Shown here: positions 356-10,283 of the stretch, piece by piece
How positions within the stretch are numbered: position 1 is the first letter of the stretch
How the letters are laid out: every line of letters begins with the position of its first letter
From: Natrinema gari JCM 14663
Lineage (GTDB): Archaea; Halobacteriota; Halobacteria; Halobacteriales; Natrialbaceae
DNA: 64,000 bases
Direction of reading: 5' to 3'
NCBI RefSeq assembly: GCF_000337175.1
Contig: NZ_AOIJ01000063.1
Span: 1 to 64,000 of the forward strand
Notes under the pieces: generated by a model
Database searches by the model: none
Seen by the model: the letters and a program-made list of their open reading frames with translations, nothing else
What the model was told of the DNA's origin: nothing
Position numbers and translations under genes: made by a program

Positions 356-1123
356 TCAGGCTCGATCGTACAGGTCGGCGTGGGCGGCACAGAACGCGGG
401 GTCGCGAAGTTGTGCATCGATCAGTTCCGGTTGCCGGTGGGCGTTAAAGAGCCGACACCCCTCCCGGTCGCAGAACGCCTCGCCGGTCTCGAGGTAGTGA
501 AACGCCTGCAGCACGTACCCCTTCAGGGCCTCGGTGGTCCGCGGGTCGTCGGCGACCAGAAAGTCGCCGTCGACCTGATTCTCGAGGACTTCCCGCGGCG
601 GCGCGTCCCCGGAGAGGAGGGCATGGCGCTGTTTTTCCTTATAGTAGGCCTCGGGCTTGGCGGGAGCCTCATAGAGCCCCGGAACCGACACCAGCGCCGG
701 TTGGCCGGGGACGATCACGCGCTTGTGCCAGCGCCCGTCGTGGTCGCCCCACGTCCCGATGGCGCGGTCGAGAATCGCGACGTGCAGCGTCTCGAGTCCG
801 CGCTCGTCGGCGGGGAGGGCGGCGTTGAGCGCGCGCTGTACCTGGGTGCCGTCGTAGAGAACCCCGCCCTCGCGCTCGGGGGTCTCGAGCGCCCGCTTCT
901 CGTACCGGATCGTCCCGAGCATCGTGTTGCCCGTCTCGCGCTCGTAGGGGGATGGAACGCGCGCCTCGGCGAACCGCTCGGCGAGGTCGTCCGTGCGGTG
1001 GACGTCGAGGAACCGATCGCGGACGGCCACGGTCGCCTCGAGTCGCGTCCGCAGCCAGGCGGTGATGTCGTCGACCGCGGCCGTCGTCGAGGGTGACCGA
1101 TAGCAGATGAGACGTTCGACCAT
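356..1123 (-). CDS. conserved archaeal protein, possible DUF6775-type putative metallopeptidase
   Basis: A 255-residue soluble protein starting MVERLICYRSPSTTAAVDDI. The central part (AILDRAIGTWGDHDGRWHKR, then VPGLYEAPAKPEAYY) and the C-terminal FCDREGCRLFNAHRQPELI look well conserved. The C-terminal cysteine/histidine set (CDREGC, NAH, FCAAH) could bind a metal, which would fit the DUF6775 family of putative metallopeptidases found in methanogens and haloarchaea. That family assignment is from memory and not verified. No signal peptide or membrane segment is visible, and no classical HExxH zinc motif is present. It is the next gene upstream of the truncated thioesterase on the same strand, 62 bases away. 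Confidence 0.72.
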   Translation of the reverse strand: MVERLICYRSPSTTAAVDDITAWLRTRLEATVAVRDRFLDVHRTDDLAERFAEARVPSPYERETGNTMLGTIRYEKRALETPEREGGVLYDGTQVQRALNAALPADERGLETLHVAILDRAIGTWGDHDGRWHKRVIVPGQPALVSVPGLYEAPAKPEAYYKEKQRHALLSGDAPPREVLENQVDGDFLVADDPRTTEALKGYVLQAFHYLETGEAFCDREGCRLFNAHRQPELIDAQLRDPAFCAAHADLYDRA

Positions 1124-1295
1124 GTACTAACTAGTGGTACCACCTGGTGAAACAGTTGCGGTTGAATCGCTCGAACGGTCGACAGCGGGACGAGGCCGTC
1201 GCCTCAAGCGGCGCGAATCGCGGACTGATCCGTGTACCGACGGCTGGGTCGAGATGGGTGTATCGCAACCGATGCCGGCCACTCACTCAGCGGGC

Positions 1296-1317
1296 TAATA
1301 CATAACTGATTGTATTA
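1296..1317 (+). promoter_or_regulatory. inverted repeat overlapping a TATA-like element
   Basis: TAATACA (1296-1302) and TGTATTA (1311-1317) form a perfect 7-bp inverted repeat with an 8-base spacer. TAATACATAA also resembles an archaeal TATA box and lies about 27 bases before the ATG at 1327. That is the spacing expected for a leaderless haloarchaeal transcript. It may be a promoter, an operator, or both. Confidence 0.4.
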
Positions 1318-1326
1318 TTCTCTCGT

Positions 1327-1452
1327 ATGGTAAGCCATCAGAGTATCAGTTGCGGTCGGAGATCAGTGCACCGAGACGAGCTGAGTTCGGATAAGACCGA
1401 CCTCATGGAAAACCAACTACACGCGGCCAGTCCAGCGGAATGCGATGTGTGA
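1327..1452 (+). CDS. possible 41-residue small protein
   Basis: The ORF begins MVSHQSISCGRRSVHRDELS and ends at TGA 1450-1452. Its only support is position: a TATA-like element lies about 27 bases upstream of the ATG, as for leaderless haloarchaeal genes. Codon usage (AGT, ATC, GTA, AGA) is not typical of the neighbouring genes, and no domain, metal-binding pair or membrane segment is visible. It could equally be chance. Confidence 0.25.
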   Translation: MVSHQSISCGRRSVHRDELSSDKTDLMENQLHAASPAECDV

Positions 1453-1753
1453 GGGGACAATGGGAGCGGTTTGCGTCGATCGAAGCGACCAGTCGGAGGT
1501 GGACAAAGGCGATCTATTGGGGACAATCATGGCCGCTGTCTCGGTCGCTGGTGTCCCGGCTCCGATCTCCTTCCCCACAATCATAATTTCACAAGAATAC
1601 TTCTATGGACATTATATCAGTTTATTGACTATCGGACGCGGTTCACGAGCAAAGCGCCGTGGCTGTGCGGGACTGGTCAGCGAAACTTCCCGGAGGCTAT
1701 GCCGTCAGCACGATTGCAGCGGTTCGGGACGGCTCGGGCGTATAGTGATCACG

Positions 1754-1760
1754 TTTATTA
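1754..1760 (+). promoter_or_regulatory. TATA box for the rdfA operon
   Basis: TTTATTA, about 38 bases upstream of the rdfA ATG at 1795, predicts transcription starting near 1782 and a leader of about a dozen bases. No other promoter is seen before the overlapping SMC-like gene, so the two genes are probably one transcript. Confidence 0.5.
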
Positions 1761-1794
1761 GCAGTCGGGCCCTCCTTTCGAACAGACCACAACG

Positions 1795-2553
1795 ATGGGA
1801 TGTAAGGTCGATACCCTTATCGAACGCCACTCTCTGACCGTCCCCGCCCCGGAGTACGATTCCGTCAACGAGTATCTGGTGGCGCGCTGGACCGGTTCGG
1901 ACGGCCGGTCCGCCGACGGATACAAAGCCCTCACGGAGTGGTTCAACAAACGGCTCCTGAAACGGCTCTACGAGGAGCACGACCGAGATACCGTCACCGT
2001 CCATCTGGACCGCGAATACGAACTCATCACCGGCGATGAGACGCTCCATCGCGACGAACTCGCGGCCGATCTCGCAACGGATGGACTCGATATCGACGAG
2101 ATCGATAGCGAACTGCCCTCCTGGAGCACGATGCGTCACCACCTCAAGGACTGTCTCGAGGCCGAAAAGGACACGCAGCCGGCGGACACGGACTGGGAGA
2201 CGGACACCGTCCGGATGGCTCGCGAACAGGCCACGGAAAAGGCCCAGTCGGTACTGTCGTCGCTCGCCTCGAAGGGCCGGCTCCGGAACGGAGAGCAAGC
2301 GGACGTCGACGTGCAGGTCAAACTGAGTTGTCCGGAGTGTTCGGTCCGGGTCCCGTTCGCGGACGCGGTCGAACGCGGATACGTCTGTGAGACGCACTTC
2401 GACGCCGAGTCGGACGAGTCGGTCCGAGAGAAGGGGCGGAACGCCTTGTCCCTTCTCGCGGTTCCGTACGGACTCCTCGAGGGGATTCAAACGGCCGTTC
2501 TCGAAGACCCGTACCTCGTCGAGGCGGTCGCGACCGCTGCCATCCCGGTATGA
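1795..2553 (+). CDS. rdfA: rod-determining factor RdfA
   Basis: A 252-residue protein starting MGCKVDTLIERHSLTVPAPE. The N-terminal half (EYLVARWTG, YKALTEWFNKRLLKRLYEEH) and a C-terminal Cys/His cluster (SCPEC near residue 178, CETH near 197) match what I recall of haloarchaeal RdfA. RdfA is needed for rod-shaped cells in Haloferax volcanii and acts in control of the rod-to-disk transition. The Cys/His set probably binds zinc; no enzymatic motif is visible. Its stop overlaps the next gene's start by 4 bases (ATGA), so translation is probably coupled to the SMC-like protein. The same pairing with an SMC-like gene (sph3) occurs in Haloferax. Function here is inferred from family and context. 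Confidence 0.8.
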   Translation: MGCKVDTLIERHSLTVPAPEYDSVNEYLVARWTGSDGRSADGYKALTEWFNKRLLKRLYEEHDRDTVTVHLDREYELITGDETLHRDELAADLATDGLDIDEIDSELPSWSTMRHHLKDCLEAEKDTQPADTDWETDTVRMAREQATEKAQSVLSSLASKGRLRNGEQADVDVQVKLSCPECSVRVPFADAVERGYVCETHFDAESDESVREKGRNALSLLAVPYGLLEGIQTAVLEDPYLVEAVATAAIPV

Positions 2554-4337
2554 CGTGGCAGTTCTCCATCGAGAACATCGCCGGTATTCGGCAGGGAGAG
2601 GCGCGCATCGAACCGGGCGTAAACGTCGTCCGGGCGTCCAACTGGCAGGGCAAATCGAGCTTTCTCGCGAGCATCGAAACGGCGCTTGGCACGGCGACGC
2701 CGCTTACCGAGGGACAGGCGACCGGTCAGGTCACCGTCACCACGGCCGACGAGGAGTTCGCCGTCACTCTCGAGCGGGCGGAGGGGTCGGTCTCCCGGAC
2801 GGGAACCCCGTATCTCCACGACGAATACGATCGAGTGTGTGCGACACTGTTCGCATCGCTCGACGAAACCAACGAGATCCGACGGGCCGTTCGAAACGGC
2901 GAGACCATCGAACACCTCCTCACGCGGCCGCTGGATTTCGAAAACATCGACGAACGGATCGCCGACCTGAAAGCGGAGCGAAAACGGGTCGAGACGGAAC
3001 GCGATCGCGCGGCGGAGGCCGCCGACCGACTGCCACAGCTTCGGACCCGAGTAACGGACCTCGAGTCGACCCTCGACGAACTGCACGCCCAACGAGCCGA
3101 GCTCGACGACGAGACCGGCGGTGGCACGGACTCTCGAGACCAGTTGAGCGAACTGCGCGCGGAGCGCGATCGCGTCGACTCCCGCATCGACCGTCTCGAG
3201 ACGACGGCCAAGCGCGTCCGCGAGACGCTGTCGGAGAAGCGAACCGAACTCGAGTCGCTCTCGGTTCCGTCGGGCGAGGACGTCGAACGCGAACTCGAGA
3301 CGCTCCACGAGGAGCGCCGCGACGTAGAGCGAGACGTCGAACTGCTACAGTCGGTTTACGAGGCGAACAAGCGCGTCCTCGATGAGGGTCGCACCGAACT
3401 GTTGACCGACGTTTCCCACGACGTGCTCGCGGATACAGTACAGTGCTGGCTCTGCGGCGAGGATGCCACACGCGACGGGATCGAGGCGCAGTTAGCGGCG
3501 CTCGACGAGCGGATCAGGGAACTCGATTCGCAAGCCGACGAGTACCGAGAGCGAGCCGCGACGCTCGAAGCAAAACGCGACGAAAGCCGGCAGGCTCGCC
3601 GGCGTGAGACGGAACTCACCGATCGTATCGGCGCTCTCGAATCGCGACTGGCAGAGACCGAAGAGAGTCTGGAAACCGCTCGGGAACGGCGGGCGGAACT
3701 GGCATCGCGTATCGAGACACTCGCCGAAGCGGTGGACGCGACCGAAGAGCGAGTCCTGGAACTGGAAAGCGAGATCAAATACACCGAAACGGAGGTCGCG
3801 GACGTTCGTGCGGACCTCGAGGACGCCGAGGCACAAGCGGACCAGTTGTCGACGCTCGACGACGAGTACGCATCGCTGACGGCGGAGATTTCCGAACTCA
3901 GGGGCCGCAAGGCGGAGATCAAACGGCGCACTCGCGAGGCGTTTTCGACCGCGCTCGACGACCTCCTGGAGCGATTCGACACGGGATTCGAGACAGCCCG
4001 TCTCACGAGCGGGTTCGATCTCGTCGTCGCCCGGGACGGCCGCGAGGCGCGACTGGACGCGCTCAGCGAGGGCGAACGGGAGGTACTGGGGCTTGTCGCA
4101 GCGGTCGCTGGCCACGAGGCGTTTGACGTCGACGAGCGCGTTCCGGTGTTGCTCCTCGACGGACTCGGTGGGTTGGCAAGCGACAACCTCCGAACGTTGG
4201 TCGACTATCTGCGGGATCGAGCCGCGTATCTCGTTCTCACGGCGTATCCCGAACACGAGGGGTTCGACGGTCACGAACTGTCGCCGGCCGACTGGCAGGT
4301 GGTCTCCCACGACAGCGACGCCGAGACAGCGTCCTGA
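2550..4337 (+). CDS. sph3: archaea-specific SMC/Rad50-like ATPase (Sph3-like)
   Basis: A 595-residue protein with the layout of a Rad50/SMC ATPase. The N-terminal P-loop NWQGKSSF is at residues 31-38. A long Arg/Glu-rich coiled coil spans about 135-290, a CWLC zinc hook lies at 299-302, and a return coiled coil follows to about 470. The ABC signature LSEGERE is at about 505 and a Walker B LLLDGLGG at about 533-540. The residue after the Walker B Asp is Gly, where classical SMC proteins have the catalytic Glu. The P-loop also lacks the usual leading Gly. At under 600 residues it is shorter than SMC or Rad50. It overlaps rdfA by 4 bases, matching the rdfA-sph3 cell-shape locus of Haloferax; a role in cell morphology is inferred from that pairing. 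Confidence 0.82.
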   Translation: MTWQFSIENIAGIRQGEARIEPGVNVVRASNWQGKSSFLASIETALGTATPLTEGQATGQVTVTTADEEFAVTLERAEGSVSRTGTPYLHDEYDRVCATLFASLDETNEIRRAVRNGETIEHLLTRPLDFENIDERIADLKAERKRVETERDRAAEAADRLPQLRTRVTDLESTLDELHAQRAELDDETGGGTDSRDQLSELRAERDRVDSRIDRLETTAKRVRETLSEKRTELESLSVPSGEDVERELETLHEERRDVERDVELLQSVYEANKRVLDEGRTELLTDVSHDVLADTVQCWLCGEDATRDGIEAQLAALDERIRELDSQADEYRERAATLEAKRDESRQARRRETELTDRIGALESRLAETEESLETARERRAELASRIETLAEAVDATEERVLELESEIKYTETEVADVRADLEDAEAQADQLSTLDDEYASLTAEISELRGRKAEIKRRTREAFSTALDDLLERFDTGFETARLTSGFDLVVARDGREARLDALSEGEREVLGLVAAVAGHEAFDVDERVPVLLLDGLGGLASDNLRTLVDYLRDRAAYLVLTAYPEHEGFDGHELSPADWQVVSHDSDAETAS

Positions 4338-4491
4338 GTCGAGCCCGCCGCTCCCGCGGGCAAGCTGCCGGATCCGCCGCGAATGCGCTCCCCATGGACG
4401 GGTGCGGACGGGAGAGTCGGGACGGATTATCTAGTAGCTTCCCTTATAATTTTGGACATGATTAAGTAAGTCGGGCTGATAGAATCACGTG

Positions 4492-4710
4492 ATGAGCGAC
4501 TTTACCGAGCACCACCAGAAGGGAGTCGAGGCGTTTACCGAGAGTTTGGAACACAAGCGACAGACGTGTCACGGCTGTGGCTTCGAAGATACCGTCCTCG
4601 GCAGCGAGTGGCAGACACACGTCGAGACGGAACCCAGGTCGGGCCACATCCTCTATCGGTTAACGTGTCCGGACTGTAACGAAACCGAAACCGTCGAGAT
4701 CGATATTTAA
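4492..4710 (+). CDS. small CxxC zinc-ribbon protein
   Basis: A 72-residue protein (MSDFTEHHQKGVEAFTESLE) with two zinc-knuckle pairs, CHGCG near residue 25 and CPDCN near 62, separated by a short beta-rich stretch. This is the two-knuckle plan of the many small haloarchaeal zinc-finger proteins, most of unknown function. A GTG at 4489 is in frame, but the ATG at 4492 is the more likely start. A TATA-like TTATAAT at 4444-4450 predicts a leader of about 20 bases. It stands alone between two longer intergenic stretches. Confidence 0.75.
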   Translation: MSDFTEHHQKGVEAFTESLEHKRQTCHGCGFEDTVLGSEWQTHVETEPRSGHILYRLTCPDCNETETVEIDI

Positions 4711-5145
4711 CCCTCGAAGACCCGATGATACTCGCCGGGCGCACGACGGGCCGCGTCCCCTCGTTCTCGGCTGAACTGAGTCGGCCCGACACGTCGTGCC
4801 GCGGCCTGCGGACCGACGCGCTCCGATCGAAGCGAGACCCCGGTGCAGGTCCAGCCCGACTCCAGCTTGACAATGACTTAGTGATTGTTACCGAACCATC
4901 TCACTCCGTCGGTTCGGGACACGGTTCCCGGCAGTGCCGAAGGCGGGCCGTCGCCGGCCGACGGTCTTCGGAGCCCGCAGTCCTGCTCGCGCGTTCGGTC
5001 CCAGCGAACGCACGGTGTCGTTGCTGGCTCCTGTATGCGGTCGCGCATGTTTCGCTGACGGATTCCGACCCGCAGTCACGTCCGTTCTCGATCGCCGGCG
5101 ATGGGAAGCGTTGATAACTCTCTGAGATAACGACTACGTACGGCC
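4711..5145. other. 435-bp intergenic region
   Basis: It contains the palindrome at 4870-4888, described separately, and a TATA-like TTGATAAC at 5111-5118 that would serve the leaderless DUF106 gene at 5146. The other open frames here look like GC-driven chance ORFs. Confidence 0.6.
4870..4888. repeat. palindrome, left copy flanking the DUF106 gene
   Basis: ACAATGACT-t-AGTGATTGT: two 9-base arms matching at 8 of 9 positions around a single base. A related palindrome lies at 6041-6061, on the other side of the 5146-6042 gene. The shared core is ACAATG-x-CT-w-AGT-x-ATTGTTAC. It could be an operator or a short element; it has no T-tract to mark it as a terminator. Confidence 0.6.
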
Positions 5146-6042
5146 ATGTCAGAACCGCAGTTAGCGTCGCTTCTCGAGGAGCCAGCGATGCGTGACGCCA
5201 TCGCAGTCGTGTTCGAACGGAGCGACGGTGGACGCGAGGAGTTGCAGTGGGCTGACGTAAGAAACGCGCTGTCGAGTGACCAATGGGGACGGTTGATCCG
5301 AACCGGGACGCTCGTGGAGGGGAGCAGCGGGTTCGCGATCGCCGATCCGGACCGCATCCAGCGAGCACTCGAGGAACGCGACCAGGGTTCGGAACCGGAC
5401 GAAAACGGGGACGAGATCGAAGCCGAACCGTGGGCCTGGTACGACAAGGCGGTCGGGCTGACGGCGCTCGCCTTCTTTATGGGGTACTGGAACACGGGGA
5501 TTCGGAATACGGTCGCGTCGTTCGATGATCTCGTTCTCGCACCGATCACCGACGTCCTCCCGTTTTACGCGGTCATCATCCTCCTCGCGATCGTGACTGG
5601 CCTCTATTCGACCGTTCTACAGGCGCGTCTCACGAACACCGAGAAGTTGCAGGCGTATCAGAAGCGAATGAACGACCTGCAAGAGCGGCAAAAAGCGGCC
5701 AAAGAACGAGGCGACGACGAAGCGCTCGAACGGATTCGGGAAGAACAGATGGCGGCCGCCGGCGATCAACTGGGCATGTTCAAACTGCAGTTCCGACCGA
5801 TGGTCTGGATCATGCTCCTGACGATTCCGGTATTCCTCTGGCTCCGGTGGAAAGTCCGTGGCGGACACCTCGGGTCCGGCGAGACCGGGCTCGTCGTGCC
5901 GCTCGCCGGCGCTGTCTCGTGGCAAGACCCACTCGTCGGTCCGATGGCGACGTGGATCGTCTGGTACTTCCTGTGCTCGATGGCGTCCCGGCAACTCATT
6001 CGGAAAACGCTCGCCATCCAGCCGGCATCCCCGTCCTCCTAA
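5146..6042 (+). CDS. EMC3/TMCO1-type (DUF106) membrane insertase homologue with N-terminal extension
   Basis: A 298-residue protein. Residues 1-75 form a soluble, acidic N-terminal region not usual for the family. Hydrophobic segments follow at about 101-118 and 138-158, then a charged coiled coil at about 160-205 (KRMNDLQERQKAAKERG), then further segments at about 217-233, 247-260 and 267-283. This order matches archaeal DUF106 proteins, which are related to EMC3, TMCO1, YidC and Oxa1 and assist membrane-protein insertion. Haloarchaea normally carry a DUF106 gene beside secY and adk in the ribosomal spc cluster. This copy lies 1 kb upstream of a SecY gene with no ribosomal genes nearby. Palindromes sit on both sides. 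A role as an accessory insertase is inferred. Confidence 0.8.
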   Translation: MSEPQLASLLEEPAMRDAIAVVFERSDGGREELQWADVRNALSSDQWGRLIRTGTLVEGSSGFAIADPDRIQRALEERDQGSEPDENGDEIEAEPWAWYDKAVGLTALAFFMGYWNTGIRNTVASFDDLVLAPITDVLPFYAVIILLAIVTGLYSTVLQARLTNTEKLQAYQKRMNDLQERQKAAKERGDDEALERIREEQMAAAGDQLGMFKLQFRPMVWIMLLTIPVFLWLRWKVRGGHLGSGETGLVVPLAGAVSWQDPLVGPMATWIVWYFLCSMASRQLIRKTLAIQPASPSS

Positions 6043-6061
6043 CAATGGCTAAGTCATTGTT
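6041..6061. repeat. palindrome, right copy flanking the DUF106 gene
   Basis: AACAATGGCT-a-AGTCATTGTT: arms of 10 bases matching at 9 of 10 positions, beginning within the stop codon of the DUF106 gene. It is related to the copy at 4870-4888. The nearest following gene starts at 6164, so it could act as an operator or as a processing or termination hairpin. Confidence 0.6.
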
Positions 6062-6163
6062 ACAACGCCGGTCGGACTCCCGTCGTGCACTGCATTCACC
6101 GAGACGGTTCCAACGACACGCCGACCGGGACGCACTCCCTTCGACTGACGGCTTCGCTCACCC

Positions 6164-6850
6164 ATGTCGCGTGTGAGCACCGACTTCGACTCCCGGCTCT
6201 CGAGTGCAGCGTTCTCGATCGGTGTCTGTCTGTGTGCGGTCGGCCTCGTCGGGAGCACGATGGATCTCGTCTCGAGCGTGCCGCTGTCCGGTCCGGGGAT
6301 CGCGATCGATCTGGACCTCGAGTTCCTCGGCGTCGTTGCCGGGCTCGGCGCGGTTGCCTGTGATCGGACCGGCGTTTCGGCAGCACTCTCATCGGAGCCG
6401 GTCTCGCCGACGGATGAACGGCAGCCGGTGTACATCACGCGGCCGCTGCTCGAGACGCTGCTCGAGACGGCTCGCCGCGCCGAGCCGGAGTCGCTTTCGA
6501 TCGGACTGGCCGTGACGCCCGCCAGTCGGATCTCGAGTCGCGCGGACATTCCCGAATCGATGCCCGTATTCACGCATTTCTATCTGCCCAAAGGCCGTAA
6601 TTCCGTCAGTACCGTCTTCGGAATGGAGCTGCAGATCCCGCCGACACGAACGCACGGTCGATTCGTTACCCATCCGCTCTCGGAGCTTCGGCTTACGAAA
6701 CGCGACGATCTCCAGGGGATCGTCTTCGTTGCCGTGCCCCCGTGGGACGACGACTCGATCGCGGCCTTCGATCGGTTCGGACGCCGATGTCCGATGCGGG
6801 TGATCGATGCGGTGCCGCCGGACGAGCCGCTGCCGGGTGAGAACCACTAG
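6164..6850 (+). CDS. hypothetical membrane protein
   Basis: A 228-residue protein not assigned to a family. Two hydrophobic segments lie near the N terminus, about residues 13-33 (SAAFSIGVCLCAVGLVGS) and 46-68 (DLEFLGVVAGLGAVAC). A soluble domain of about 150 residues follows, with conserved-looking stretches FTHFYLPKGRNSVSTVFGMEL and RFVTHPLSELRL. The layout suggests a membrane anchor with a cytoplasmic or external globular domain. It lies between the DUF106-like gene and secY on the same strand, so it may share their job, but the gaps (121 and 211 bases) allow separate promoters. Confidence 0.65.
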   Translation: MSRVSTDFDSRLSSAAFSIGVCLCAVGLVGSTMDLVSSVPLSGPGIAIDLDLEFLGVVAGLGAVACDRTGVSAALSSEPVSPTDERQPVYITRPLLETLLETARRAEPESLSIGLAVTPASRISSRADIPESMPVFTHFYLPKGRNSVSTVFGMELQIPPTRTHGRFVTHPLSELRLTKRDDLQGIVFVAVPPWDDDSIAAFDRFGRRCPMRVIDAVPPDEPLPGENH

Positions 6851-7061
6851 TATTTTTATCGCCTCTCGATCAACTCGAACACGAGCACTCAGTCGACAGC
6901 CAGCGGTCCACGTCGAGTCGAGACGCTGCCTCGGCACGGATTCGTCCGGTTGCGGCATGAGTATCAACTCCAGAGAAGCGTATGAGATACCATACTGACA
7001 CTCCAGTTCTTATCGGCCGCCGGTATCGTTGTCGACCACATTCGACGCCGACGTGGTACCG

Positions 7062-8525
7062 ATGAGTTGGAAAAATGCAGCCGAACCGATCCTCGTTCGC
7101 ATGCCGACCGTCCGCCGACCCGAGGGACACGTCCCGTTCCGTCGGAAACTCGCCTGGACGGCCGGCACGCTCGTCTTGTATTTCTTCCTGTCCAACGTCT
7201 ACCTCTTCGGCGCTGATCAGGGAAGCGATATTTTCGGCCAGTTCCGATCGATTCTGGCGGGTGGCCAGGGGACGATCCTCCAGCTCGGCATCGGCCCGAT
7301 AGTGACCGCGAGTATCGTCTTACAGCTGTTGGGCGGCGCGAACCTGTTGGGGCTAGACACCGATGATCCGCGTGATCAGACGCTCTATCAAGGGCTACAG
7401 AAACTTCTCGTCGTCGTCATGATCTGCCTGACCGGCCTTCCGTTGGTGTTCGCGGGCGGGTTCTTGCCGGTCGACCCGAGCATCGCTCACGCGCTGAGTG
7501 TCCCACAGAGCGTCGTCAAGTGGCTCATATTCGCCCAGATATTCATCGGCGGCGTCCTGATCCTGCTCATGGACGAAGTCATCAGCAAGTGGGGCGTCGG
7601 GAGCGGTGTCGGACTCTTTATCGTCGCCGGCGTGAGTCAGAAACTCATCGGCGGGTTGCTCTCGATTCCCGGACTCACCGGCCAGCGACCCGGCGTCTTG
7701 ATCGCCTGGGTCGAAATCCTGCTCGGAGACATTCAAGTCGGCTCCCCGCTTACCGAAGCGGGGCTCCAGTCGCTGCTGTTCGGCGTCGGCAATATCGTTC
7801 CACTCCTGACGACCCTGCTGATCTTCGGCATCGTCGTCTATGCCGAGAGCGTTCGTGTCGAGATTCCGCTCTCGCATGCTCGAGTCAAGGGCGCTCGCGG
7901 ACGGTTTCCGGTCAAACTCATCTATGCGAGCGTCCTCCCGCTGATTTTCGTCCGCGCGCTGCAGGGGAACATCCAGTTTCTCGGCCGCATTCTGTATCGG
8001 CAGTTCGGAGACACCCTCCCCGCGTGGCTCGGTGTGTACGCGAACGGGAGCCCCGTCGGTGGGCTGTTTTATTATTTGAACCCGATCCACACCCCGCGGC
8101 AGTGGATGTGGTGGACCGGCAGCGTGACACAGCATCCCTGGCAGGTCGTCCTCCGCGTGGCGATCGACCTCGTGTTCATGCTCGGCGGCGGGATCGTGTT
8201 TTCCGTCTTCTGGGTCGAAACCGCCGATATGGGGCCCGAATCGACGGCCCAACAGATCGATAACTCCGGCATGCAGATCCCCGGCTTCCGGCAGAACGTC
8301 GGCGTCATCGAGCGAGTCATGGAGCGGTACATTCCGCAGGTCGCCGTCCTCGGCGGCTTGCTCGTCGGTATCCTGGCTGTGCTCGCGAATATGCTCGGCA
8401 CCATCGGCGGGATTTCGGGGACGTCACTGCTGCTTACGGTCAGTATCACGTACAAACTCTACGAGGAGATCGCCGAGGAGCAACTCATGGAAATGCATCC
8501 GATGATGCGCCAACTCTTCGGCTGA
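7062..8525 (+). CDS. secY: preprotein translocase subunit SecY
   Basis: The channel subunit of the Sec translocon in the cytoplasmic membrane. The ATG at 7062 (MSWKNAAEPILVRMPTVRRP) is chosen over an upstream TTG because haloarchaeal SecY proteins begin with this W-K-x-A-x-P sequence; it gives 487 residues, a normal length. Family segments are clear: HVPFRRKLAWTAG, RSILAGGQGTILQLGIGP, a conserved cytoplasmic loop SHARVKGARGRFPVKLIYAS, MGPESTAQQI and the C-terminal EEIAEEQLMEMHPMMRQLFG. About ten membrane segments are expected. The gene is not in a ribosomal spc cluster with adk, which is its usual home in haloarchaea. It is therefore either a second SecY or a relocated one; an upstream DUF106 insertase gene favours a duplicated export module. 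Confidence 0.95.
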   Translation: MSWKNAAEPILVRMPTVRRPEGHVPFRRKLAWTAGTLVLYFFLSNVYLFGADQGSDIFGQFRSILAGGQGTILQLGIGPIVTASIVLQLLGGANLLGLDTDDPRDQTLYQGLQKLLVVVMICLTGLPLVFAGGFLPVDPSIAHALSVPQSVVKWLIFAQIFIGGVLILLMDEVISKWGVGSGVGLFIVAGVSQKLIGGLLSIPGLTGQRPGVLIAWVEILLGDIQVGSPLTEAGLQSLLFGVGNIVPLLTTLLIFGIVVYAESVRVEIPLSHARVKGARGRFPVKLIYASVLPLIFVRALQGNIQFLGRILYRQFGDTLPAWLGVYANGSPVGGLFYYLNPIHTPRQWMWWTGSVTQHPWQVVLRVAIDLVFMLGGGIVFSVFWVETADMGPESTAQQIDNSGMQIPGFRQNVGVIERVMERYIPQVAVLGGLLVGILAVLANMLGTIGGISGTSLLLTVSITYKLYEEIAEEQLMEMHPMMRQLFG

Positions 8526-9353
8526 CCCCTCGAGCGCTCGAGTCGGCTCGCAGTCCACACCGTGATCGTCCGGCGTCATCCCGTTCGGTGAATCGAGGCG
8601 GAACGACACTCGCATCGCGGTCGAGACTGTGACCAAAATTGCTCAAGAAACTAATGTGAAGTTGTTCTTTGTGGATCTCTGAAGCAGTTCGAGAGAAACT
8701 ATTTCTCTCTAAGTACCAGTTTGTACATGTGTTGCTAGCTGATCTGGTTTCCACGTTGTTCGTCTCCAAAATCGGAGTCACGCGTTGACTGGCGTCGGTT
8801 GGTGATTTATCCCACCGAGACGCTGGACAACACGGCGTCGGAGACATGGTGCGTCCCGTTACAGTCCGTGAAAAACCATTACGGCCGGCGTCGGCTCGAG
8901 TGTCGCGGATCGTCGCTTGTCGGATCGTGGTCGGCGACAGCGCAGAAACACTCCCGATCACCGTCGAACCACGGTCTCGGTGATCGCGATGTGAGCCGCG
9001 CGCTGGCTCGCGTCCGGTCGCACCGGCACGTTACGAATCCGGAGACGGATCGTCTGCTGAACTGATCATCGCCAAATATATCGAATCTACATATAGTATG
9101 TGAAACCGAGTAGTTGGACATCTAGGTCTGATACGGAAGTCTAACAACAGCTACAGCGTTTCCTTCTCACACGACATTGTCCACCTGAGTGTACGACAGT
9201 TTGCGAGCAGCGTGGTACTCGTTTCAGTCGGGACGAGCGAACTCAGACACGCGTTCTCGAGGGAAAACACGTCGATCCACTCATACCTCACCCAGTCGCC
9301 CGGCCGCGAACCTACCGGCACGGTTCCGCTTCCCGTCGCCCCCTCGTGTCCGC
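8526..9353. other. 828-bp intergenic region between convergent secY and thi4
   Basis: An AT-richer stretch at about 8630-8760 follows secY and holds the perfect hairpin at 8691-8709. A short inverted repeat, ACATA-TAG-TATGT, lies at 9089-9101. The 158-codon minus-strand frame at 8485-8961 runs into secY and shows no family features. I see no convincing gene. Confidence 0.6.
8691..8709. repeat. perfect 8-bp inverted repeat downstream of secY
   Basis: GAGAGAAA-cta-TTTCTCTC, about 165 bases after the secY stop. The 3-base loop would form a tight hairpin. A GTAC-containing imperfect repeat follows at 8713-8726. It could be a 3' processing or termination element for secY or an operator of unknown target. 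Confidence 0.45.
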
Positions 9354-10283
9354 TCAGTCGTCGGCGGGGGCCGCACGCGATGTCAGTTCGACGGGGTCGG
9401 CATCGATCTCGAGTTCGTCCAGCGCCTCCTGGGCGGCCCGTTTCCCGGAGACGAGCATCGCGCCGAACGTCGGCCCCATGCGCGGCAGGCCGTAGGTCGT
9501 CGCGGTGGCCATCCCCGTGGCGATGAGGCCGTCGTGGACGAGCCCGGTGTGTTCGACGACGGCGTCCTCGGACTTGCCGACCCACATCGAGTCGTGACCG
9601 GGCGAGTCGTGGCCGGGCGCGCCATAGGTGTCGTCGTCGGTGCTGTCCATGCCCGTCGCCGATTCCTCGGCGTCGCCGATACCCGGTGCGTCGAGGACGC
9701 CGCGTTCGTCGAGTTTCTTGACCGCCATCGCGTCGTGGCCGGTCGCGTCGATGACCAGATCGGCCTCGACCGCGATCGGGTCGACACAGGTGATTTCGCG
9801 CGGCAGGGCATGGACCGGCGTCCAGTTCATGACGATGCCACCGACGCGGTGGTCCTCGCGGATGACGATGTCCGTGAACTCGGTCATGTTCTGCATCTTC
9901 GCACCGGCGTCGCAGGCGGCTTTGATCAGCCCGGAACAGGCCTCCGGACCGTTCGCGACGTACAGCCCCTCGCTGTCCTGGGACTGCTTGAAGTCCACGT
10001 CGAGATCCTCGAGGATCTGCTGTGCGGGGTCACGCACCGTGACCTTGTTCATCAGGAAGCCGCCGAGCCAGAAGCCGCCCCCGAGGTAGTTGTTCTTCTC
10101 GACGACCATTACCTGGACGCCGCGCTCGGAGAGTTCCTTCGCCGCGGTCAGCCCCGAGGGGCCGCCGCCGACGATGATGACGTCCGAGTCCGAGAAATCC
10201 ATGAACTCCTCGGTCCACTCCTGTCCGATCGCGCGGGTGACATCGGCTTCGCCGACCTGACTGAACTGCTCGAATTCGCTCAT
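9354..10283 (-). CDS. thi4: thiamine thiazole synthase Thi4
   Basis: A 309-residue protein with an N-terminal dinucleotide-binding fold ([17 protein letters not shown], about residues 35-51) and the Thi4 signatures [31 protein letters not shown] and [12 protein letters not shown]. Thi4 makes the thiazole part of thiamine from NAD and glycine. Cys166 in ITCVDP is in the position of the yeast and Haloferax active-site cysteine that donates sulfur. The protein should therefore be a single-turnover suicide enzyme rather than a sulfide-using type as in Methanococcus. The stretch around residues 205-230 ([18 protein letters not shown]) is a loop of the expected kind. It is transcribed toward secY, alone, with its own upstream region. 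Confidence 0.93.

Follow-up and report, generated by a model that had tools for sequence, protein, structure and literature searches.

Introduction

Paralogous SecY proteins with a partner of their own are known mainly from Gram-positive bacteria, where the accessory Sec system (SecA2/SecY2), with its Asp proteins and adhesin, adds a further SecY to that used for housekeeping. To our knowledge, archaea possess no SecA. The canonical SecY and DUF106 (EMC3-type) proteins of haloarchaea are encoded in the order ribosomal proteins-secY ... adk ... DUF106-cmk-cbf5, as in Natronorubrum bangense, and the genome paper of Natrialba magadii lists a single SecY set (PMC3403918). The eukaryotic multipass translocon of the endoplasmic reticulum (ER), in which Sec61 is joined by TMCO1, serves multi-pass proteins (PMC7505659), and EMC3 proteins have been linked in evolution to the Oxa1 insertases and a DUF106-like ancestor (PMC8887752). 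In Haloferax volcanii, RdfA is encoded next to the SMC-like Sph3 (PMC10869688). Here, we describe a locus of Natrinema gari JCM 14663 that shares features with each of these systems and encodes a second SecY (SecY2), an accessory EMC3 of the DUF106 family and a protein named MID. It lies within the first 64,000 nucleotides of contig NZ_AOIJ01000063.1 (C63), hereafter the window, of a genome of 4.02 Mb in 88 contigs (99.95% complete).

Compared to the canonical cluster, the SecY and DUF106 proteins of the window belong to the same families, but they are paralogues encoded outside the ribosomal cluster and accompanied by MID, an RdfA and an Archaea-specific SMC-related protein (ASRP). Like the bacterial accessory system the locus has a second SecY, but SecY2 reaches only 18.7 bits against the cut-off of 249.6 for the bacterial family TIGR02920 and is thus no member of it, and the module has MID and EMC3. 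The ER membrane complex also combines an EMC3-type insertase with MPN-fold proteins, EMC8 and EMC9, the MPN nature of these two being general background that our literature searches did not confirm; MID differs in being membrane-anchored, and no sequence link between it and EMC8/9 was found. With the multipass translocon the locus shares the pairing of a Sec61/SecY channel with an EMC3/TMCO1-type insertase, whereas MID has no known counterpart there. The RdfA-ASRP pair resembles RdfA-Sph3 of H. volcanii, but represents another paralogue and occurs in linkage with SecY2, EMC3 and MID. Searches within the open-access literature on haloarchaeal SecY paralogues, DUF106/EMC3 with SecY, and RdfA did not find this module. 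The reading that we favour, with moderate confidence, is that a mobile island here carries an accessory SecY-EMC3 module for membrane-protein insertion, in which a pseudo-JAMM protein is the partner.

Results

A previous inspection of the DNA without database searches (the sequence-only reading) had described a full-length SecY outside the ribosomal cluster, preceded by a DUF106 insertase and a two-helix protein, and had weighed a second, dedicated export/insertion module against simple relocation of a single secY. The window indeed encodes an intact SecY2 of 487 amino acids (aa; 7062..8525, + strand), for which the best start is the ATG at 7062 and not the TTG at 7029, and which belongs to the SecY/Sec61-alpha family according to matches above cut-off to PF00344 (E 4.4e-68, 230 bits) and to the plug domain PF10559 (43 bits). 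The DUF106 gene (5146..6042, + strand) and the gene for the 228-aa MID (6164..6850, + strand) ahead of it are likewise intact, and rpl15 and adk are absent from its vicinity, as had been read. The genome search proposed at that time revealed a second full-length secY and a second DUF106/EMC3 gene, both on contig C42 and separated by about 15 kb. Since the genome holds two of each, the pair in the window is extra, and relocation is ruled out. Natrinema altunense AJ2 and N. pallidum strain DSM 3751 hold two of the nearest copies.

Among the three closest Natrinema, the ratio of nonsynonymous to synonymous substitution rates (dN/dS) amounted to 0.047-0.070 for SecY2, compared to 0.137-0.176 for canonical SecY. 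SecY2 is under strong purifying selection, and these values rule out a pseudogene. For MID, EMC3, RdfA and ASRP a dN/dS of 0.11-0.21 was determined, and for ZN73, a small zinc-finger-like protein of the same locus, 0.20-0.60 on very few changes.

In a tree of 64 SecY rows, 13 SecY2 proteins (Natrinema, genus g14, Halohasta, G380 and Haloferax) grouped together with a support of 88/97, and the five SecY2 of Haloarcula were placed among the canonical SecY of Haloarculaceae. The EMC3 and MID of Haloarcula, on the other hand, group with their module relatives: its EMC3 joins the accessory EMC3 of Natrinema with a value of 93 in the Shimodaira-Hasegawa-like approximate likelihood ratio test (SH-aLRT), and its MID joins the other MIDs with 87/86. 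Judged from these placements, the SecY2 slot in Haloarcula is one that has been refilled, or converted, by a local SecY. Two changes are common to both SecY2 groups. Position 296 is F in 18/18 SecY2 and L in 46/46 canonical SecY (L296F), and position 455 is S in 17/18 SecY2, compared to G in 45/46 and S in 1/46 canonical proteins (G455S). These positions align with residues 261 and 403 of the Methanocaldococcus jannaschii protein, adjoining 260 and 406, which we take to be pore-ring residues.

The accessory EMC3 (298 aa) is a clear member of the EMC3/TMCO1 family (PF01956, E 7.6e-44; 149.9 bits against a cut-off of 27.1). In an EMC3 tree of 81 rows, 36 accessory rows were split from the canonical ones with an SH-aLRT of 100; all 18 rows linked to SecY2 fall into the accessory clade, and three rows first labelled accessory were placed on the canonical side. 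On the basis of this tree, the accessory EMC3 is regarded as one old clade. The AlphaFold model of the protein (mean predicted local distance difference test score, pLDDT, of 71.4) is matched best in the PDB by TMCO1 chains from Sec61 translocons (E 0.03 and 0.1, probability 0.99-1.00; Z 8.4); these structural scores are modest, while the Pfam match is clear. Residues 2-87 of the model resemble winged-helix domains with a Z of up to 8.2. The N-terminal extension of about 75 residues had been taken for unusual, which does not hold: in 42/42 canonical haloarchaeal DUF106 rows at least 65 of the 78 columns of this region are filled, with a median identity of 45%.

MID had been characterized as a two-helix protein of unknown family. 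Two hydrophobic segments (approximately residues 10-41 and 45-66) are present and no Pfam or NCBIfam family was matched, but the description is incomplete, since a C-terminal domain of about 145 residues follows. With the AlphaFold2 model of MID, all six Foldseek matches at E <= 0.001 were JAB1/MPN proteins (1r5x, E 4.6e-6), and the structural alignment by VIA-align with AF2198 (1oi0_C) gave a Z of 11.3 at 2.7 A over 99 aligned residues. AF2198 was also matched by sequence with a 12-sequence profile (E 4.7e-6). The C-terminal domain is accordingly assigned a JAB1/MPN fold, on a low-confidence model. Compared to AF2198, at the positions that we take to be the zinc ligands of the JAMM motif, V, I or L stands in place of the first His of H-x-H and another residue in place of the Glu, whereas the second His and the Asp are conserved. 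Since two of the four metal ligands are replaced, MID does not qualify as a JAMM metalloprotease and is predicted to be non-catalytic. EMC8 and EMC9 were not among the best 50 structural matches of MID, an absence that does not exclude a relation. The identification of MID as a SecE was considered and found no support in Pfam.

Homologues of the MID domain occur in 374/391 Halobacteria genomes, and most of those among the matches listed consist of the domain only, without helices. A branch with a support of 93/83 separates the MIDs from these universal homologues. The homologues themselves, as at L202:7362-7784, are short MPN-like proteins to which neither Pfam nor NCBIfam gives a name.

Two or more SecY matches were found in 24/391 Halobacteria genomes. 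Fifteen carry SecY2, in each case as a full-length extra copy directly downstream of a full-length MID, and in 15/15 the accessory EMC3 lies on the same contig; for the other nine, the second match is a fragment or is not among the matches listed. Ten genomes beyond the 15 have a second MID match. One of them, Halobaculum magnesiiphilum, possesses RdfA-ASRP-ZN73-EMC3 and a remnant of MID (residues 1-69) without SecY2, and this remnant points to a loss of SecY2. The SecY2 genomes fall into three families (f1, f3 and f4). Within the 125 genomes of the host family, five have a full second SecY adjoining the accessory EMC3, and four more have extra SecY matches, namely fragments (G056, G082, G115) and two equal-scoring copies at 13% contamination (G101). 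The Natrinema genome G056 (L025, L024) has a fragmentary secY at a contig end and a full secY on another contig, which is probably assembly-related.

Among plasmid records, SecY2 was found in three and MID in the same three, and plasmid copies lie among genes for APC permease, HPP, MATE, SulP, TrkH and P-type ATPase proteins. A fourth plasmid SecY record belongs to the 828-kb megaplasmid of N. bangense (L116) and is the canonical copy. Since the entire ribosomal-protein/secY/adk/DUF106 cluster is located there, this replicon may be a chromid. On plasmid unnamed3 of Haloarcula pelagica, the first and last approximately 43 kb (L273, L276) carry the same genes, probably due to an untrimmed circular assembly.

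In comparison with ten related Natrinema, the homology of the flanks breaks off at 1116-1162 and restarts at 9347-9356, which delimits an inserted island of about 8.2 kb (approximately 1163..9349) with six genes in the order rdfA, ASRP, the small zinc protein, the EMC3 paralogue, MID and secY2. The unit is therefore larger than 5146-8525 as originally outlined, the three upstream genes belonging to it as well. The rdfA paralogue (1795..2553, + strand) encodes a 252-aa member of the RdfA family (PF21811, E 9.8e-37), the other RdfA of the genome being encoded on contig C30. ASRP (2550..4337, + strand) matches NF045487 above cut-off with 461 bits, and the 72-aa ZN73 (4492..4710, + strand) has a sub-threshold match of 34 bits to the HVO_0649 family; ZN73 is conserved at this position in Natrinema, Haloarcula, Halohasta and several loci with EMC3 only.

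On the left, the island is flanked by a DUF7001/DUF6775 gene assigned by Pfam (356..1123, - strand) and on the right by a Thi4-family gene (PF01946; 9354..10283, - strand), both of which are present in 29/29 Natrinema genomes. The two genes are 16 bp to about 2.2 kb apart in 24 of these genomes, in three they enclose the present island, and in two, G068 and G069, approximately 8 kb of other sequence. Of the ten Natrinema compared at the junction, eight are empty of the island and the other two are G068 and G069. The empty site in relatives identifies the island as mobile. Since the sequence in G068 and G069 is different and shows no match to the module proteins, the junction may be an insertion hot spot. 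At this junction, stretch L252 of G068 or G069 contains open reading frames that look by eye like a double AAA ATPase, an epimerase and PKD repeats. A search for terminal repeats of the island gave none that were convincing, and no tRNA as an integration target lies within the window. A phage or provirus origin was rejected, as no relative of SecY2 was found in phages or in a scan of the viral_contigs collection. At the contig start, positions 1-23 carry AGATGTGTATAAGAGACAG, presumably a Nextera-like transposon end left as an untrimmed adapter.

Two copies of a 23-bp palindrome with the consensus TNACAANNACTNAGTNNTTGTNA are located at 4868..4890 (position weight matrix score of 38.8) and 6040..6062, the latter sharing its first three bases with the EMC3 stop codon; no match is expected in shuffled windows, and the best score elsewhere in 365 kb of this genome is 12.8. 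Copies scoring 20-41 occur in 24/24 distinct loci with RdfA-ASRP and accessory EMC3, compared to 0/9 accessory-EMC3 loci without RdfA-ASRP in the stretch examined. Since the matrix derives from loci of the former type, the information lies in the comparison with the nine; the rows are related. On the H. pelagica plasmid, every site lies within the module region. An exact scan of viral_contigs gave 13 matching stretches, which may arise by chance, since the pattern has 16 fixed bases and the collection is very large.

The palindrome lies 42-492 bp upstream of MID in 18/18 loci, and a TATA-like sequence is found near several copies. For these reasons, we prefer to read it as the putative operator of a small regulon. 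The less preferred explanation is a recombination site at a cassette end. This would fit the fixed position, since the palindrome begins exactly at the EMC3 stop codon (offset 0) in 17/25 loci; six Haloferax loci have it 44-46 bp past this stop, and in two loci it is absent there. The same explanation is favoured by Halohasta (L183), in which an inverted MID-secY2 unit is bounded by two copies, and by Haloplanus (L193), in which one copy remains where MID-secY2 is missing.

Discussion

The proposal of a second module draws support from the empty insertion site, from purifying selection and from the fact that SecY2 strictly co-occurs with MID and the accessory EMC3 clade; the dedicated export or insertion that was also proposed would be the likeliest function. 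Since the plasmid copies adjoin transporter genes and the Sec61-TMCO1 assembly of the ER serves multi-pass proteins, the data suggest that this accessory module inserts multi-pass proteins and has MID as its partner. Only one Sec61-beta was found when a second was sought in the genome, and a Pfam search for SecE gave no match, the same search also missing that of H. volcanii. SecY2 would probably form an alternative translocon with this single Sec61-beta and the SecE of the cell, and the EMC3/TMCO1-type insertase would work alongside it. Anchored by its two-helix hairpin, MID would present a non-catalytic MPN domain in the cytosol and could serve SecY2 specifically as an adaptor or assembly factor. 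The module would likely insert multi-pass transporters whose genes share its islands and plasmids, with the palindrome as a shared control element and RdfA-ASRP as a regulatory or cytoskeletal companion.

Several observations weigh against this interpretation. The accessory EMC3 does not need SecY2, since at least 12 genomes among the matches listed have EMC3 only; two further genomes with accessory EMC3 (G016 and G349) were added by the EMC3 tree. SecY2 as one clade, with the group set by linkage before the tree was made, was rejected in the approximately unbiased test with a p of 0.00085. No transporter gene lies on the island in the window, and the AlphaFold model of MID is weak (mean pLDDT of 54.6 from 8 sequences). 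Furthermore, SecY2 retains 195-203 of the 206 positions invariant in canonical SecY and may consequently do the same job.

The last point leads to the alternative that survives best, which we nevertheless rate as unlikely: selfish or redundant cargo, in which the duplicated translocon would have no specialised role and would be maintained through dosage or by the mobile element. The retained residues and the canonical ancestry of the Haloarcula SecY2 would fit, but the strong purifying selection, the invariable pairing with MID and the spread over three families argue against it.

Ranked next, and improbable in our view, is a cell-shape module, in which RdfA-ASRP would act as in Haloferax and SecY2, EMC3 and MID would supply a growth state with surface or shape proteins. 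The pair is found near SecY2 in 17/18 SecY2 loci (the 18th contig being only 7.5 kb long), in the Haloferax loci on the other side of the module, and RdfA and Sph3 of H. volcanii are required for rod shape (PMC10869688). However, RdfA-SMC-like pairs are not specific to the module, since several paralogues exist that are adjacent in 42/54 cases generally (PMC10869688), and no surface-protein gene is consistently linked.

Last comes an inhibitor-resistant spare translocon, in which SecY2 would replace or supplement SecY under a Sec-blocking toxin or compound; its changes at 296 and 455, beside the presumed pore constriction, could give tolerance and its distribution on plasmids and islands is mobile, but it is the least probable alternative, as it explains neither why SecY2 always comes with MID and the EMC3 paralogue nor why EMC3-RdfA-ASRP modules exist without SecY2.

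Returning to the accessory insertion module, a bolder version would see SecY, the EMC3/TMCO1 insertase and the membrane-anchored MPN pseudoenzyme as one complex, a mobile archaeal holo-insertase and a parallel to or source of eukaryotic EMC3-EMC8/9 and Sec61-TMCO1, with palindrome-bounded cassettes gained, lost, inverted and refilled with a local SecY. This version is doubtful, no likelier than a redundant duplicate.

Altogether, the locus represents a recurrent paralogous SecY of archaea that goes together with an MPN protein and an EMC3-type insertase, and the module looks common to various haloarchaea. It bears on the role of MPN subunits in insertases and on the passing of translocon specialisation between species, and the palindrome offers direct access to regulation or cassette exchange. 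Since Haloferax and Haloarcula carry the module, it is genetically tractable and opens the question of how Sec and EMC-type insertases cooperate.

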